From Geothrix limicola (GTDB lineage: Bacteria; Acidobacteriota; Holophagae; Holophagales; Holophagaceae), in contig NZ_BSDE01000003.1 of assembly GCF_030268085.1 (NCBI RefSeq), forward strand, positions 248,001 through 312,000: DNA of 64,000 nt, read 5' to 3'. The position numbers and the translations under genes were made by a program. Shown in pieces: positions 56,308 through 63,264 of the stretch (position 1 is the stretch's first letter; the number at the start of each line of letters is the position of its first letter). The notes beneath the pieces are model-generated. The model ran no database searches. It had not been told where the DNA came from and was given only the letters and a program-made list of their open reading frames with translations.

Positions 56308-56428
56308 TGGTCCGTCAAGGCGATCTTCCTGTCCGGGCAGCCATTCTCCTCGACGGGACCGTCGGCTTTTGATGAACTGGAGGGTGCGCCGCTCGAAGGC
56401 GCCCTTCCCCGCCAGGACCTTTTCCGTC

Positions 56429-57451
56429 ATGACGAATCCGATGATCCACCAACCCGCCGAATGGGATCGCCACAGCGCCTGCTGGCTGGCCTGGCCCAGC
56501 CACGGCCACCTGTGGCAGGAGAACCTGGCCTCGGCCCAGACGGAGTTTGCGGCCCTCTGCCTCGCCATCGCCGAAGATGGCGGTGAGGATCTGGATCTGC
56601 TCGTGCAGGACGATGTGGCCGAAGCCCAGGCCCGCGCGGCCCTGGCGCCCGTGCTGGGCCAGGTGCGCTTCCACCGTGTGCCCGTGGGCGACATCTGGCT
56701 GCGGGATACGGCGCCGATCTTCGTGAAGGCGGGCGGTGCGCTGCAGGCCGCCTGCTTCCGCTTCAACGGATGGGGCGGCAAGTACGTGCTGCCGGGCGAC
56801 GATCAGGTGGCCCCGCGGGTGGCGGCCCTGAGCGGCCTGCCTTCGCGGGTTCATGCGTGGATCCTCGAAGGCGGATCCGTGGAGGCAGATGGTGAAGGCA
56901 CCCTGCTCACCACCCGCCAGTGCCTGCTCAATCCCAACCGCAATCCGGGCCTGGATCAGGCGGCCCTCGAAGCGGCCCTGCGCAAGGATCTCGGCGCCGA
57001 GAAGGTGCTTTGGCTGGACGAGGGCCTCATCAACGATCACACCGATGGCCACATCGATACCCTGGCGCGCTTCGTGGCGCCGGGCGTCGTCGTGTGCATG
57101 GAGGCGCGCGATGCCGGCGATCCCAACGCCGCCACGCTGGCGCGCCTCGCGTCGGATCTCGAAGCCATGACCGATGCGCGGGGGCGGAAGCTGAAGGTGC
57201 TGCGCATCCCCTCGCCCGGCGCACTGGAAAACGAGGACGGCGAGCTCATGCCCGCCAGCTACGTGAACTTCTACATCGGCAACCGCAGCGTCGTCGTGCC
57301 GACCTACGGCACGCCCCACGACGAAGCCGCCGTGGCGGCCCTGGCGCCCCTCTTCCCTGGGCGGCGCGTGGTGGGCCGCTCGGCCCGCGCCATCCTCAGC
57401 GGGGGCGGCGCCTTTCACTGCATCACCCAGCAGCAGCCGGAGGTCCTGTGA
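56429..57451 (+). CDS. aguA: Agmatine deiminase
   Basis: Converts agmatine to N-carbamoylputrescine and ammonia; peptidylarginine-deiminase fold, 340 residues. N-terminal PAEWDRHSACWLAWPS, GDIWLRDTAPIF, FNGWGGKY, EGGSVEADGEGTLLTT, the catalytic His in DHTDGHIDTLARF and the catalytic C331 in GGGAFHCITQQQ are all in place. The ATG at 56429 suits the family; ATG 56441 is a possible alternative. Overlaps aguB by four bases. Putrescine synthesis by this pair is the established two-step route. Confidence 0.94.
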   Translation: MTNPMIHQPAEWDRHSACWLAWPSHGHLWQENLASAQTEFAALCLAIAEDGGEDLDLLVQDDVAEAQARAALAPVLGQVRFHRVPVGDIWLRDTAPIFVKAGGALQAACFRFNGWGGKYVLPGDDQVAPRVAALSGLPSRVHAWILEGGSVEADGEGTLLTTRQCLLNPNRNPGLDQAALEAALRKDLGAEKVLWLDEGLINDHTDGHIDTLARFVAPGVVVCMEARDAGDPNAATLARLASDLEAMTDARGRKLKVLRIPSPGALENEDGELMPASYVNFYIGNRSVVVPTYGTPHDEAAVAALAPLFPGRRVVGRSARAILSGGGAFHCITQQQPEVL

Positions 57452-58296
57452 ACACGACAATCCGCGTCGCCGCCACCCAGTGCGCCTTCACCGCCAGCCT
57501 GGACGAGAACGTGGCCCGGGTGGAATCGCTCGTGCGCGAGGCCGCGGCTCAAGGTGCGCAGGTGATCCTGCCTTCGGAGCTGTTCGAGGGCTACTACTTC
57601 TGCCGCGAAGAGAAGGACGAATTCTTCGACTGGGCCAAGCCCGCCGCGGGACACCCCACCATCACCCGATTCCAGGCCCTGGCCAGGGAACTGGGCGTGG
57701 TCATCCCCGTCTCCTTCTACGAGCGGGACGGCCACATGTACTACAACAGCCTCGCCATGGTGGACGCCGACGGCGCCCTGCTCGGCATCTACCGCAAGAG
57801 CCACATTCCCGACGGACCCGGCTACGAGGAGAAGTTCTATTTCCGGCCGGGCAACACGGGCTTCAAGGTCTGGGACACGCGCTTCGGCCGTGTCGGCGTG
57901 GGCATCTGCTGGGACCAGTGGTACCCGGAATGCGCCCGGGCCATGATGCTCATGGGCGCCGAGATCCTGATGTATCCCACGGCCATCGGCACCGAGCCCG
58001 AGAACCCCGAGCTGGACACGAAGGACCTCTGGCAGCGCGCGATGATTGGACACGCGGTGTCCAACGTGGTGCCCGTGGTGGCCTCCAACCGCATCGGTCT
58101 GGAGGGCGACCAGACCTTCTACGGCCACTCCTTCATCTCGAACCACCGCGGCGACAAGGTGGCGGAACTGGGGCGCACCGACTCGGGCATCATCCACGCG
58201 GCCTTCGACCTCGACGAGATCCGCCGCAACCGGGCCTCCTTCGGCTTCTTCCGTGATCGCCGGCCCGACCTCTACGGCACGATCACCCAGCTCTAG
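57448..58296 (+). CDS. aguB: N-carbamoylputrescine amidase
   Basis: Nitrilase-family enzyme releasing putrescine from N-carbamoylputrescine, 282 residues. The Glu-Lys-Cys triad is E44 in LPSELFEGYYF, K117 in YRKSHIPDGPGY and C154 in VGICWDQWYPE. The GTG start overlaps the aguA stop (GTGA). Its TAG stop shares the tetranucleotide CTAG with the convergent mocR gene. Confidence 0.95.
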   Translation: MNTTIRVAATQCAFTASLDENVARVESLVREAAAQGAQVILPSELFEGYYFCREEKDEFFDWAKPAAGHPTITRFQALARELGVVIPVSFYERDGHMYYNSLAMVDADGALLGIYRKSHIPDGPGYEEKFYFRPGNTGFKVWDTRFGRVGVGICWDQWYPECARAMMLMGAEILMYPTAIGTEPENPELDTKDLWQRAMIGHAVSNVVPVVASNRIGLEGDQTFYGHSFISNHRGDKVAELGRTDSGIIHAAFDLDEIRRNRASFGFFRDRRPDLYGTITQL

Positions 58297-59660
58297 GTTC
58301 CTTCGGCTCTCAGCGCCTCCGCCACGCCCTCGAGCCGCGCGAGGCCCTGGGCGAGGGTGGCGCGGTCCGGCGCGGCGCCGATGGAGATGCGCAGCCCCGG
58401 CTCCTGCACGGCCCGCGTGGCGGCGAAGACGTCTGAAGGCACCACGACCACGCCAACCTCCAGGGCCCGCCGGGTGAAGCGCTCGGGCCCGCCCGGAGGG
58501 GCGGGCAGCCACACGTGGGGGCAGTGGGGCGCGCCGCGCCAGGCGAGGTGGCGGAGATTTTGGGCGCAGAGGCGATGCCGGGCGGCGAGTTCCTTCCGTT
58601 GGGCGAGGAGGCGGTGCCAGGCCGTGCCGTCCTCCAGCCAGGCCGTGCCCAGGGCCATGCTCAGGGCCGTGACGTACCAGGTCGTGTGATGCTCAGCCTC
58701 GCGGGCCCGGGCCTGCAGCAGGGGCGGAAGCAGCAGGTAGCCCAGCCGCAGGCCCGGCGCGACGGTCTTGGAGAGGCCGGTCACGTACAGCACGCGCTCG
58801 GGCGCCAGGGCGGCCAGGGGCGGCGGCGCCCCCTCCTGCAGCAGGCCGTAGACGTCTTCCTCGACCAGGATCAGATCGTGCTTCCGGGCGAGGGCGACGA
58901 TCTGCTCGCGCCGCTTCAGGCCCATGGTGGCGGTGGTGGGGTTGTTCAGGGTGGGCGACAGGGCCGCCACGCGAAGGCCCGCGCGGCAAGCCGCCTCCAG
59001 GCCCGAGGGCAGGAGGCCCTCCTCGTCCATGGGCATGGGGTGGAGGCGGCGGTGGCTCTGGCGCGCCACGGCCTTCAGGCCCGGATAGACGAGGGCTTCA
59101 CAGGCAAGATCCTCGTGCTCGGAGAGCAGCCCCAGGGCCGTGTCCGCCGCGTGCTGCGCGCCGGCGCAGATCAGCACCCGCTCGGGATCGGCCGACACGC
59201 CGCGGCGCGCCATCCAGGCGGCGGCGGCCTCGCGGTGGAGGCGCGTATCGCCGGGACTCGGGTAGTTGAGGAAGCGCCCGCCTTCGCGGTGAAGGAGGGC
59301 CGCGAGCCCTTTGGCCAGGTCGTCCTCGGCGAGGCCCACGGGCGGGCGGTTGGTGGAGAGGTCGATGACGCCGCCCTCGGGCCGGCTGTGGAAGGCGAAG
59401 AGGGCTTCTTCCGAGGCCAGGCCCAGCACGTAGGTGCCGCGTCCCACCTCGCCGCCGACCAGCAGGCGGCGGGCGGCTTCGCGGTAGGCGCGTGTGATCG
59501 TGCTCACATTCACACCCAGGAGGTCCGCAAGGGCGCGGTGGGTCGGGAGCTGGTCCCCGGGCCTCAGCCGGCCCAGTCGTACCGCGGCTCCGATGGCATC
59601 GGCCACGGCCAGGTACGTGGGACGTGAATCCTCGGGAAGGTCGGGCACCCAGATTGTCAT
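58293..59660 (-). CDS. MocR-type GntR/aminotransferase-like transcriptional regulator
   Basis: A 455-residue chimeric regulator. The N-terminal GntR winged helix (about 14-80) has PGDQLPTHRALADLLGVNVSTITRAYREA; the rest is a class I aminotransferase-like domain with PLP lysine in TGLSKTVAPGLRLGY and the aspartate in LVEEDVYG. The ATG at 59660 sits inside a palindrome that is a likely auto-operator. It is convergent with aguAB and divergent from the dsrC operon, so either could be its target. Ligand unknown. Confidence 0.9.
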   Translation of the reverse strand: MTIWVPDLPEDSRPTYLAVADAIGAAVRLGRLRPGDQLPTHRALADLLGVNVSTITRAYREAARRLLVGGEVGRGTYVLGLASEEALFAFHSRPEGGVIDLSTNRPPVGLAEDDLAKGLAALLHREGGRFLNYPSPGDTRLHREAAAAWMARRGVSADPERVLICAGAQHAADTALGLLSEHEDLACEALVYPGLKAVARQSHRRLHPMPMDEEGLLPSGLEAACRAGLRVAALSPTLNNPTTATMGLKRREQIVALARKHDLILVEEDVYGLLQEGAPPPLAALAPERVLYVTGLSKTVAPGLRLGYLLLPPLLQARAREAEHHTTWYVTALSMALGTAWLEDGTAWHRLLAQRKELAARHRLCAQNLRHLAWRGAPHCPHVWLPAPPGGPERFTRRALEVGVVVVPSDVFAATRAVQEPGLRISIGAAPDRATLAQGLARLEGVAEALRAEGT

Positions 59661-59669
59661 GCAGACAAT
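59653..59669. promoter_or_regulatory. Palindrome over the mocR start codon (putative operator)
   Basis: ATTGTC-ATGCA-GACAAT is a 17-bp inverted repeat with perfect 6-bp arms. The mocR start codon (59660-59658) lies inside it, and the dsrC start is 68 bases downstream on the other strand. MocR/GntR regulators commonly bind such sites near their own starts; binding here is inferred. Confidence 0.5.
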
Positions 59670-59736
59670 TTTGATTCTGACCCACACAAAATCCAGCCCG
59701 GATGTGGGGCGCGGATCGCCCGGCTTGGGAGGATGC

Positions 59737-60057
59737 ATGGGCAGTCTGGTGTTCAACGGACAGGTGGTGGCGCTGAACGAGGAGGGTTTCCTCGTGGAGC
59801 CGGGCCTCTGGAACGAGGATCTGGCGCGGGTCTTGGCCCGGGAGGAAGAGGGGCTCGAGACCCTGGACGAGGAGCACTGGGCGGTCATCCGGTTCATCCG
59901 CGCGCACTTCGAGGAGAAGCAGGGGGCGCCCATGGTCCGCGCGGTCTGCAAGGGCACGGGTCTGCGGCTCCAGCGCATCTACGACCTCTTTCCCAGTGGC
60001 CCCGCCAAGGGCGCCTGCAAGCTGGCGGGCCTGCCCAAGCCCGACGGCTGCGTCTAG
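59737..60057 (+). CDS. dsrC: DsrC/TusE-family sulfur-carrier protein with both redox cysteines
   Basis: A 106-residue cytoplasmic sulfur carrier. The C-terminal arm has C94 in GACKLAG and the penultimate C105 in DGCV, exactly ten residues apart, the two-cysteine pattern of true DsrC; TusE-only proteins keep just the last. In sulfate reducers DsrC carries sulfur as a trisulfide that is reduced by DsrMK. GGGAGG lies just upstream of the ATG. It is first in an operon with a DsrM-like and a DsrK-like gene and a cysteine desulfurase; dsrAB are not in the window. Confidence 0.92.
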   Translation: MGSLVFNGQVVALNEEGFLVEPGLWNEDLARVLAREEEGLETLDEEHWAVIRFIRAHFEEKQGAPMVRAVCKGTGLRLQRIYDLFPSGPAKGACKLAGLPKPDGCV

Positions 60058-60066
60058 GGGGTGTCG

Positions 60067-60684
60067 ATGTCTGTCGTGCTGACCTTGGGCGTGCTCGCCT
60101 CGGCCACCTGGGCCGTGGCGGGTCTCGTCCTGCTGCGAGCCGAGGCCCGTGCCTACGGATCGCGCGCCCTCCACGCGGCCCCCGCCGGGGACCCGGCCGC
60201 GGGCGTGCGCTACGCCTTCACGGGGGCCATGAGCCCCGGTGCCAAGGAGAGCGTGCGGGAGCACCTGCCTTCGTACTTCGCGGGCCTGGCCTACCACGGT
60301 GGCATCTTCACGGCCCTGGGCCTGCTGCTGCTTGCCCTGTGCGATGTGGCGCTGCCCGGCCGCATCCTGATGGGAGCCCGGATTCTCCTTGGCTTGGGTG
60401 TCTTGGGCGGTCTCGGGCTGCTGTTGAAGCGCCTCCTGAAGCCGGAGCTACGCCGCCTCTCCCACCCGGATGACGTGGTATCGAACCTGCTCGCCACGGC
60501 CTTCGTGGCCCTGGCCCTCACAGGGCCCGTTACGGCCTGGATGCTGAGCGCCATGCTGCTGCTGATCTACGTGCCCCTCGGCAAGATCCGGCACTGCCTC
60601 TTCTTCTTTGTGGCGCGCCGCCACCTCGGGGCCTTCTTCGGCCGCCGGGGCGTCTTTCCGCCGGGAGGCGCCCATGTCCGCTGA
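60067..60684 (+). CDS. Membrane protein, small DsrM/TmcC/NarI-like cytochrome b candidate
   Basis: A 205-residue membrane protein with about five hydrophobic helices. Histidines occur in GLAYHGGIFTALG and KIRHCLFFFVARRH, positions that could bind heme b as in DsrM/NarI-type subunits, but the protein is shorter than DsrM (about 330) and I cannot confirm heme ligation. I chose ATG 60067 (AGGGGG five bases upstream) over GTG 60061. It overlaps the DsrK-like gene by 11 bases, which strongly supports a two-subunit membrane complex. Confidence 0.7.
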   Translation: MSVVLTLGVLASATWAVAGLVLLRAEARAYGSRALHAAPAGDPAAGVRYAFTGAMSPGAKESVREHLPSYFAGLAYHGGIFTALGLLLLALCDVALPGRILMGARILLGLGVLGGLGLLLKRLLKPELRRLSHPDDVVSNLLATAFVALALTGPVTAWMLSAMLLLIYVPLGKIRHCLFFFVARRHLGAFFGRRGVFPPGGAHVR

Positions 60685-62041
60685 ACTGGATCAGAAGCTG
60701 GAGGCCCTCACGGACGAGACCCTCGCCAAGGGGCTGGCGGTTTTCCGCGAACATCTCAAAGAGGCCGAGGCGGGCTTCCTGAACGCCTGCGTCCGCTGCG
60801 GTCTCTGCGCGGACAGCTGCCACTACCACCGCGCCGAACCCAGGCTGGAGAACGTGCCGGGCCGCAAGCTGGATCACATCGCGAGCGTCTTCCGCGCCCA
60901 TTACACGACTTTTGGCCGCGTGGCGCCGGGCTTGGTGGGCGCCAAGCGCTTCGACCGCGACATGGCCCGCGCCTGGGTGGATGCGGTCTTCGGCCGCTGT
61001 TCGCTGTGCGGGCGCTGCTCACTCAACTGCACCATCGGCATCCCCATGCCCGCGCTGTTCCGCGCGGCGCGGCGGGCGCTCGGCGCCATGGGCCTGGTGC
61101 CCGACGATCTGCAGGCCAACGTGGAAAACAGCCTGAGGCACGGCAACAACATGGCCATCGAGCGCGAGGAGTGGGTGGAGACCCTCGAGTGGATCGAAGA
61201 AGAACTGCAGGCCGAGACGGGCGATCCGCAGGCCCGGATCCCCGTGGACAAGCAGGGCGCGCGCTGCCTCTTCACGGTGAATCCCCGCGAGGCCAAGTTC
61301 TTCCCGCTCTCCCTGCAGGCCAGCGCCAAGGTCTTCTGGGCGGCCAAGGAGGACTGGACCCTGGCCAGCGAGGCGGGCTGGGATCTCACGAACTATGCGC
61401 TGTTCACCTGCGAGGACGACCAGGCCGCGGCCATCGTGAAGAACCTCACGGACGCCATGACGCGGCTGGGCTGCGAGGTGCTGGTCATCGGCGAATGCGG
61501 CCACGGCTACCAGAGCGCGCGCTGGATGGGGCCCGAGTGGCTCAAATCCGCATTCCCTTTTCCCGTCGTGAGCATCCTCGAACTCATGGATCAGTACCTG
61601 GACGAAGGCCGCATCCAGGTCGATCCGACGAAGAACACCCAGCCCGTGACCTTGCATGACCCCTGCAACCTCGTGCGCCACGGCGGCATTTCGGAACCCC
61701 AGCGCCGCGTGCTGCGCAGGGCCGTGAACACCTTCACGGAGATGGCACCGCGAGGCATCGAGAACTACTGCTGCGGCGGGGGCGGCGGCCAGCTGGCCAT
61801 GTCCGAATACCGGAACCGGCGCCTGAAGGCGGGCCGCATGAAGGCGGATCAGATCCGCGCCACCGGCGCCAAGGTGGTGGCCGCCCCCTGTCACAACTGC
61901 ATCGATCAACTCAGTGAGCTGAACAAGGAATACCAGCTGAAGGTTCACATCAAGACCGTGGCGGAACTCGTCGCCGCGGCCCTCGTCCCGCCCACGTCCA
62001 CTCCCTCGTCTACACCCACATTCGCGGAGGCCCAGCCATGA
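60674..62041 (+). CDS. DsrK/HdrD-like iron-sulfur disulfide (trisulfide) reductase subunit
   Basis: A 455-residue protein. Two ferredoxin-type [4Fe-4S] sites use C39, C42, C45, C49 and C109, C112, C115, C119. The C-terminal half has CCG-type cysteine motifs, LHDPCNLVRHGG, ENYCCGGGGGQL and APCHNCIDQL, which in HdrB/HdrD/DsrK hold the special catalytic iron-sulfur cofactor. Family knowledge says it should reduce DsrC disulfide or trisulfide using electrons from the membrane partner. ATG 60674 has GGGAGG upstream; the four-base overlap with the cysteine desulfurase ties the unit together. Confidence 0.88.
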   Translation: MSAELDQKLEALTDETLAKGLAVFREHLKEAEAGFLNACVRCGLCADSCHYHRAEPRLENVPGRKLDHIASVFRAHYTTFGRVAPGLVGAKRFDRDMARAWVDAVFGRCSLCGRCSLNCTIGIPMPALFRAARRALGAMGLVPDDLQANVENSLRHGNNMAIEREEWVETLEWIEEELQAETGDPQARIPVDKQGARCLFTVNPREAKFFPLSLQASAKVFWAAKEDWTLASEAGWDLTNYALFTCEDDQAAAIVKNLTDAMTRLGCEVLVIGECGHGYQSARWMGPEWLKSAFPFPVVSILELMDQYLDEGRIQVDPTKNTQPVTLHDPCNLVRHGGISEPQRRVLRRAVNTFTEMAPRGIENYCCGGGGGQLAMSEYRNRRLKAGRMKADQIRATGAKVVAAPCHNCIDQLSELNKEYQLKVHIKTVAELVAAALVPPTSTPSSTPTFAEAQP

Positions 62042-63264
62042 CCCTGCTCCACCTTCCGATTCCGCCCGAAGTGAAGATGATCTACCTCGACAACGGGGCC
62101 ACCTCCTTCCCCAAGCCGCAGGAGGTCTACACGCGCATGGACACCTTCTACCGCTCGGCGGGCGTGAATCCCGGACGCAGCGGCTTCGACCTCTGCCTGG
62201 AGGCGGGTTCCCTCGTGGACGACACGCGGCGCCTGCTCTGCGATTTCTTCGGGGGCACGGATCCCAACCGCCTCGTCTTCGGCCTGAATTCGACGGACGC
62301 ACTGAACCTGGCCATCTGGGGCAGCCTCCAGCCCGGCGATCACGTCGTCACCACCCACCTGGAGCACAACGCCACGCTGCGGCCCCTCTGGAAGCTGGAG
62401 CAGGAGGGCAGTCCCGTCGATTGGGTGGACTTCGACGCGACCGGCTACGTGGATCCCGCCGAGGTCATCCGCCGCTTCAGGCCCGAAACGAAGGCCTGCG
62501 TCATGAACCATGCCTCCAACGTCATCGGCACCGTGCAGGACGCTGCCACCATCGGCGCGGCATGTCGCGAGCGCGGCATTCGCTTCATCCTGGACGTGAG
62601 CCAGAGCGCAGGCATGGTGCCCGTGAAGATGGATGAGCTGAACGCCGATATCGTCTGCTTCACGGGCCACAAGAGCCTGATGGGCCCCATGGGCATCGGC
62701 GGCATGTACGTGCGCGAGGGCGTGGAGGTGCGCCGCACCCGCGCGGGCGGCACGGGCGTGAAGAGCATCCAGCGCCAGCACCTGGACGAGTATCCCTACC
62801 GCATGGAGTACGGCACGCCCAACCTGCCGGGCATCGCGGGCCTGAACGCGGGCGTGCGGTGGGTGAACGAGTTGGGGCTTTCGACGATCCACCACCACGA
62901 GATGGTCCTGTGGCGGCGCCTGCGGGACGCCCTGCGGGAGATCGAGGGCGTGAGGCTCTACTGCGCCGAGGACATCCCGGGCCGCGAGCGGATCAGCGTG
63001 CTCTCCTTCAACGTGGAGGGGATGGAGGCAGCGGACGTGGGCACCATGCTGGACGTGGACCACAACATCGCCTGCCGCACGGGCCTCCACTGCACGCCCA
63101 TGGTGCACGAGCACCTGGGCACGGCGGCGATCCACGGCGCCGTGCGCTTCGGCATCGGCGCCTTCAATCACGCCGAGCACATCGAGGCGGCCATCGAGGG
63201 CGTGCGCGAGATCGCAGCCGGGCGCAGGCGCCGGGCCGCGAAGCTGGAGACGACGAGCGCCTAG
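62038..63264 (+). CDS. Cysteine desulfurase-family class V aminotransferase
   Basis: A 408-residue PLP enzyme. [14 protein letters not shown] starts the fold after a 13-residue leader; the PLP lysine is K212 in FTGHKSLMG, and the persulfide-carrying cysteine is most likely C352 in GLHCTPMVH. It resembles the cysteine desulfurase family protein group (SufS-like) more than IscS. Last gene in the dsrC-dsrM-like-dsrK-like operon, so it may load sulfur from cysteine onto DsrC; that transfer is inferred. Its stop shares CTAG with the convergent chemotaxis gene. Confidence 0.88.

Follow-up and report, generated by a model that had tools for sequence, protein, structure and literature searches.

We describe a four-gene cassette from Geothrix limicola in which the sulfur-carrier protein DsrC is encoded together with a NarI-like membrane subunit (M), an HdrB/DsrK-like iron–sulfur protein (K) and a pyridoxal phosphate (PLP) dependent cysteine desulfurase (CD). 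It lies in the 64,000-nucleotide stretch of DNA analysed here (the window), and the same four genes recur together in several bacterial phyla. We judge it somewhat probable that the cassette is a cysteine-fed DsrC/membrane disulfide-reductase module; the transfer of sulfur to DsrC and the direction of electron flow are the parts of this reading that we infer. The genes, in order, are:

59737..60057, + strand: DsrC, 106 residues; CysB is C94 and CysA is C105, the C-terminus reads ACKLAGLPKPDGCV, and there is no TusE-type insertion
60067..60684, + strand: M, NarI-like membrane subunit related to HmcE/TmcC, 205 residues
60674..62041, + strand: K, HdrB/DsrK-like iron–sulfur protein, 455 residues, with two 4Fe-4S sites and one HdrB/DsrK-type CCG site
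62038..63264, + strand: CD, PLP cysteine desulfurase, 408 residues (TIGR01977)

These coordinates and the shared strand are as an initial annotation, made from the DNA letters, had given them for four overlapping or close-set genes. The two redox cysteines of DsrC are present with the ten-residue spacing that it noted, and CD overlaps K by the expected four bases (ATGA). M and K overlap by 11 bases, and M might alternatively start from the in-frame GTG at 60061. The host genome (4.23 Mb, 97% complete) holds a single copy of DsrC.

Conservation and spread of the cassette

DsrC occurs in 20 of the 77 genomes of the family Holophagaceae. The order DsrC-M-K-CD on one strand was found in 17/17 family loci whose contig extends past K; in L031 and L032 the contig ends inside K, and in L029 just after DsrC. 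The neighbourhood survey called for by the initial annotation thus confirms that the four-gene set is more than chance, given the same order in every long-enough family locus and its recurrence in other phyla. The cassette is nevertheless accessory, since only 7 of 47 genomes in the host genus carry it. No fifth gene is broadly conserved in its neighbourhoods.

A survey of 396 Acidobacteriota genomes, including the flanks of 60 further loci, distinguished three kinds of DsrC. In the dsr-cluster type, K is 27–32% identical to the host K; in the cassette type, K is 42–57% and CD 48–66% identical to the host proteins; the third kind has neither K nor CD in reach and mostly lacks CysB. Gene order in the cassette type varies across the phylum, with CD convergent or divergent, M-K placed before DsrC, or DsrC and CD found without M-K in reach.

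Scanning 84,980 species genomes with an alignment of K returned 80 loci. DsrC, M, K and CD occur together in 45 of them, in three arrangements; another 12 have DsrC-M-K, several of these located at contig ends, and in some M-K or K stands alone. The loci come from Acidobacteriota (including Aminicenantes), Bacteroidota, Zixibacteria, Planctomycetota, Gemmatimonadota, Eisenbacteria, CSSED10-310 and others, as assigned from record titles, most of them of metagenome-assembled genomes (MAGs) and single ones possibly wrong; complete chromosomes are included (L195, Bacteroidales bacterium CF). The four-gene set thereby spans six or more bacterial phyla and extends to gut bacteria (Butyricimonas-type Bacteroidota). 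Among the 56 genomes of the family that includes 'Candidatus Butyricimonas faecavium', six have DsrC, each time within a full cassette in order. Nine Bacteroidota cassettes (L150, L155, L163, L168, L169, L174, L181, L201, L206) also encode, just 5' of DsrC, a small cysteine-rich protein of 80–111 residues with the pattern CPN..C..........YC.......CKRY, a candidate for a lineage-specific extra component.

A DsrC with both cysteines and an altered C-terminal arm

The host protein is a member of the DsrC family by PF04358 (114.5 bits, cut-off 24.9) and TIGR03342 (98.8 bits, cut-off 53.5), and falls under the TusE equivalog cut-off (71 bits versus 191). In the phylum survey, cassette DsrC ends in ...ACKxAGLPKPDGCV, with PDGCV in 41/42 proteins, whereas all 17 DsrC from loci with canonical DsrK end in ...PKPTGCV. 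The wider scan found Asp or Glu at this position in 57 of 59 DsrC, and its sole PTGCV locus (L190) lacks CD. Because this residue sits two positions before CysA, on the sulfur-carrying arm, it may be the mark of a changed partner of DsrC.

CysB is retained in every cassette DsrC except those of L086 and L141, which have Ala instead. CysB has been described as occurring only where DsrAB occurs, with few named exceptions (Stockdreher et al. 2012, PMC3397948). The cassette clade is a large further exception to this rule. One locus, L113 in genome G300, consists of a DsrC-CD pair whose DsrC ends in AKGCV; dsrAB and a canonical DsrC are encoded in that genome as well, and the pair may hold a specialised second copy.

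The desulfurase stays with DsrC

CD exceeds the TIGR01977 cut-off (394.8 versus 377 bits), and its H110, PLP lysine K212 and catalytic cysteine C352 are invariant in 22 homologues. The active-site loop is short, as in SufS, and the nearest solved structures are mostly of SufS type. SufS-type desulfurases need a dedicated acceptor, and DsrC is the obvious acceptor for CD here.

Enzymes with at least 75% identity to CD occur in 22 of the 77 family genomes, namely 19 of the 20 with DsrC and three genomes that are 64–83% complete. In G064, the only DsrC-bearing family genome without a match, DsrC lies at a contig end. The next-best CD-like enzyme in family genomes is 41% identical. CD also remains with DsrC across rearrangements, including loci with no M-K in reach (L108, L113, L118). 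A housekeeping role for CD is unlikely, because the host has at least two further relatives at about 30% identity and cassette-free congeners keep such relatives as well.

Could CD instead be a selenocysteine lyase, with DsrC as a selenium carrier? CD scores 285 bits on the selenocysteine lyase model SclA (cut-off 525), and relatives 37–41% identical to it stand beside selD in other Holophagaceae. However, nothing scored over the SelD cut-off in 6/6 tested cassette genomes of the host genus, nor in G061, G063, G073, G075, G450 or G453, and since SelD is missing from the cassette genomes tested, we regard a selenium route as very improbable. In two genomes a CD relative with 37–38% identity adjoins selD and TusA-like genes (G065:C1:4385470-4388048; G066:C1:4855083-4858051, the latter also with a DsrE-like gene), and there, enzymes of the same family as CD seem to supply selenium clusters by way of different carriers.

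An iron–sulfur protein of its own clade and a NarI-like membrane subunit

Both 4Fe-4S motifs of K are complete (C39/42/45/49 and C109/112/115/119), and the five cysteines of the HdrB-type motif C331-X34-CC366/367-X38-C406-X2-C409 are invariant in 25 homologues. The cysteine motifs are kept throughout the aligned homologues, save for a gap in one sequence caused by a run of N; a run of N, not biology, also accounts for the unusual length of K in L086. The description of K as DsrK-like holds for these sites and the CCG motif, but the NCBIfam scores lie nearer to HmcF (292 bits, cut-off 750) and TmcB (283 bits, cut-off 735) than to DsrK (226 bits, cut-off 400), all below the equivalog cut-offs; a canonical acidobacterial DsrK scores 670 on the DsrK model. 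In a tree of K, long and strongly supported branches set all cassette proteins apart from canonical DsrK. The AlphaFold2 (AF2) model of K has a predicted local distance difference test score (pLDDT) of 91, its Foldseek matches are EtfD and HdrB, with HdrB among the top fold matches, and a PDB sequence search with K returned no DsrK. K forms a clade of its own and is not DsrK by the NCBIfam cut-off.

M scores on the HmcE and TmcC models, under their equivalog cut-offs. Its AF2 model has a pLDDT of 94, and NarI accounts for all eight confident fold matches. Two histidines are invariant in 24 homologues, H176 and H77, the latter aligned to a histidine of NarI in the profile match; these putative haem b ligands suggest that M binds one haem b.

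The K clade extends beyond the cassette. In Chloroflexota, M-K pairs that have no DsrC or CD with them (L154, L158, L159, L166, L167) neighbour a Qrc/Psr-like molybdoprotein and iron–sulfur set and a large CxxCH-bearing protein, and some of these loci also have a DsrE-like and a CobB/DsrN-like gene; this is another system built on the same K clade. In gut and rumen Bacteroidales (L173, L188, L189, L194, L196, L197, L202, L208), a lone K stands amid housekeeping genes with no M, DsrC or CD nearby, and these proteins form one clade of the K tree.

The source and destination of the sulfur

The initial annotation had described an operon without dsrAB and had named dsrAB elsewhere in the genome as evidence against its reading. 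Our search found no match to dsrA in the host genome. Across the cassette-bearing genomes dsrA was absent from 41 of 42 in Acidobacteriota, the exception (G300) having a separate canonical DsrC, and from 10/10 in other phyla. The same search gave a match in 7/7 canonical genomes used as positive controls.

We also considered another sulfite reductase as a hidden partner and rejected it. The host genus has a siroheme reductase, encoded alongside CysH-, CysD- and CysN-like genes (G000:C2:378600-383200, L233), an operon which, named by reading the sequences and not by a family scan, reads as assimilatory sulfate reduction. The siroheme sulfite reductase domain was absent from 7/7 tested cassette-bearing Holophagaceae outside the host genus and from 4/4 sampled cassette genomes of other phyla, and sulfite is for this reason unlikely to be the sulfur source of the cassette in general. 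Within the genus the NIR_SIR domain occurs in 6/6 cassette-bearing and 1/6 tested cassette-free genomes, and in 0/7 of the other cassette Holophagaceae; shared ancestry may lie behind this pattern.

The search for sulfur donors suggested in the initial annotation, covering tusBCD/dsrEFH and tusA, found neither a DsrE-family (DsrEFH/TusBCD) gene nor TusA in the host genome, and we reject a Tus-type relay there. The earlier suggestion that cysteine, not sulfite, supplies the sulfur is supported by the lack of dsrA, by the absence of sulfite reductase outside the host genus, by the constancy with which CD stays with DsrC and by the lack of a DsrEFH/TusBCD/TusA donor.

That annotation left two destinations open for the sulfur on DsrC: membrane electron transport or a biosynthetic acceptor. 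For the latter, CD would load DsrC, which, like TusE, would pass sulfur on for tRNA thiolation or another thio-cofactor, with M-K serving only to keep DsrC reduced. DsrC and TusE belong to one family, and in Escherichia coli MnmA receives IscS-derived sulfur from TusE (PMC3397948). However, MnmA was found in all 24 genomes tested, cassette-bearing or not, the host lacks the Tus proteins named above, and no acceptor gene is conserved near the cassette. In addition, the cassette DsrC lacks the TusE insertion, scores far below the TusE cut-off and keeps CysB. The independence of MnmA from the cassette and the absence of Tus proteins weaken this branch, which we consider improbable, and CysB together with M-K speaks for redox chemistry.

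Regulation and neighbouring genes

The region upstream of DsrC contains a divergent regulator and two conserved elements:

58293..59660, − strand: MocR-type regulator (GntR and aminotransferase domains), EhuR-like, divergent to the cassette
59653..59669: conserved imperfect palindrome ATTGTCATGCAGACAAT, overlapping the regulator start codon; candidate operator
59683..59692: CACACAAAAT, another conserved element, located between the divergent genes; candidate operator half

A homologue of the regulator adjoins DsrC, divergent to the cassette, in at least 10 loci, and at least 10 loci with a divergent regulator carry the conserved block ATTGTCATGCACACAAT...CACACAAAAT beside DsrC. It is likely that the MocR-type protein regulates the cassette. 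As MocR regulators are PLP-binding sensors of amino compounds, the regulator fits an amino-acid substrate. Upstream of the regulator, window positions 56380-58296 (+ strand) hold a likely pair of agmatine deiminase and N-carbamoylputrescine amidase for putrescine synthesis; the amidase has a Pfam match (CN_hydrolase).

Proposed mechanism and points against it

In the cysteine-fed module that we favour, L-cysteine would give up its sulfur to CD, forming a persulfide on C352, and CD would hand that sulfur straight to C105 of DsrC, yielding alanine and a DsrC persulfide. Such direct transfer is chemically possible, because E. coli IscS with cysteine persulfurates Allochromatium vinosum DsrC at its penultimate cysteine in vitro (PMC3397948). 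Following known DsrC chemistry, C94 could then attack the persulfide, releasing sulfide and leaving a C94-C105 disulfide, or a trisulfide could form. From the anatomy of the two subunits, K would re-reduce DsrC at its HdrB-type disulfide-reduction site, with M drawing electrons from the (mena)quinol pool. The net reaction would convert cysteine and quinol to alanine, H2S and quinone and serve as an electron sink, with or without energy conservation; the PLP-binding regulator probably turns the cassette on in response to an amino compound.

Several observations weigh against this mechanism. The patchy distribution within the host genus shows that the function is dispensable. Since L086 and L141 carry Ala for CysB, the disulfide or trisulfide chemistry, as read from these sequences, cannot be universal. 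M looks like a one-haem relative of NarI and not like a full DsrM. M-K may not be the sole partner of DsrC, given the three loci with DsrC and CD but no M-K in reach and, in five others (L101, L107, L120, L125, L128), a K that the tree places in another subclade.

Alternatively, DsrC could act in thiol redox sensing or persulfide homeostasis. In that case M-K would recycle a redox-active DsrC that signals or protects, and CD would supply sulfide or persulfide without being part of energy-linked catabolism. A patchy, dispensable distribution and a small operon with a PLP-type regulator would suit such a role. Counter to this, the presence of a dedicated membrane module of quinone type, and of a desulfurase that is conserved, suggests flux over signalling, and we think a sensing role unlikely. 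Electrons might also flow the other way, from DsrC thiols or persulfide through M-K to the quinone pool, making cysteine sulfur an electron donor. DsrMKJOP is taken to be oxidative in sulfur oxidisers, where DsrC accepts sulfane sulfur (PMC3397948; PMC13293266), but the cassette comes without DsrAB or a known sulfur-oxidising enzyme and no sulfur-oxidation gene is conserved in its neighbourhood. We give the oxidative direction little credence.

Relation to known systems and implications

Among the nearest known parallels is DsrC with DsrMK(JOP) in sulfate and sulfite reducers, which shares CysA and CysB in DsrC and a membrane cytochrome-like subunit with a CCG subunit that reduces oxidised DsrC. 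The cassette differs in having a cysteine desulfurase and no dsrAB or conserved JOP neighbours, in a K well under the DsrK cut-off and in PDGCV instead of PTGCV. The short NarI-like subunit and K score best on models of the Hmc and Tmc complexes of Desulfovibrio (HmcE-HmcF, TmcC-TmcB), but K is far under those cut-offs, no multihaem cytochrome gene is conserved alongside, and DsrC and a desulfurase are in the operon. In the E. coli IscS-TusA-TusBCD-TusE relay, too, desulfurase sulfur ends on a DsrC-family protein; the host, by contrast, lacks the intermediate carriers, its desulfurase is adjacent and apparently acts directly, and CysB and M-K are present. SufS-SufE/SufU and CsdA-CsdE resemble the cassette in that CD is a SufS-like short-loop desulfurase needing a dedicated acceptor, whereas here DsrC would take that role, in connection with a quinone-type module, and no SufE/SufU gene is conserved in the cassette.

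We found no description of a DsrC-desulfurase cassette in the open-licence literature. In the parts of one study available to us, phylogenies include DsrMK without identified DsrAB from seven bacterial assemblies, and a desulfurase partnership is not described (PMC10504309). Growth with cysteine as electron acceptor is mentioned for an Acetomicrobium-related MAG, without a DsrC mechanism (PMC10579422).

DsrC with both cysteines has been taken as a companion of DsrAB; here a whole clade spanning several phyla has a desulfurase instead of the sulfite reductase. Both dsrC and dsrK-like genes can mislead as markers of sulfate reduction, and one gut survey lists dsrC among sulfur genes. The CysB-less DsrC of L086 and L141 are natural variants useful for probing the disulfide step. 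We tentatively suggest, as a possibility, a widespread cysteine-sulfur respiration in which desulfurase, DsrC and M-K use cysteine sulfur as terminal acceptor for the quinol pool and release H2S without a sulfite reductase, in environmental bacteria belonging to at least six phyla as well as in gut Bacteroidota. If the mechanism is true, cysteine sulfur would have a route by which it accepts electrons, and bacteria outside the recognised sulfate and sulfite reducers would have a source of H2S. Gut Bacteroidota are among these bacteria, and cysteine-derived H2S is a live medical question there.

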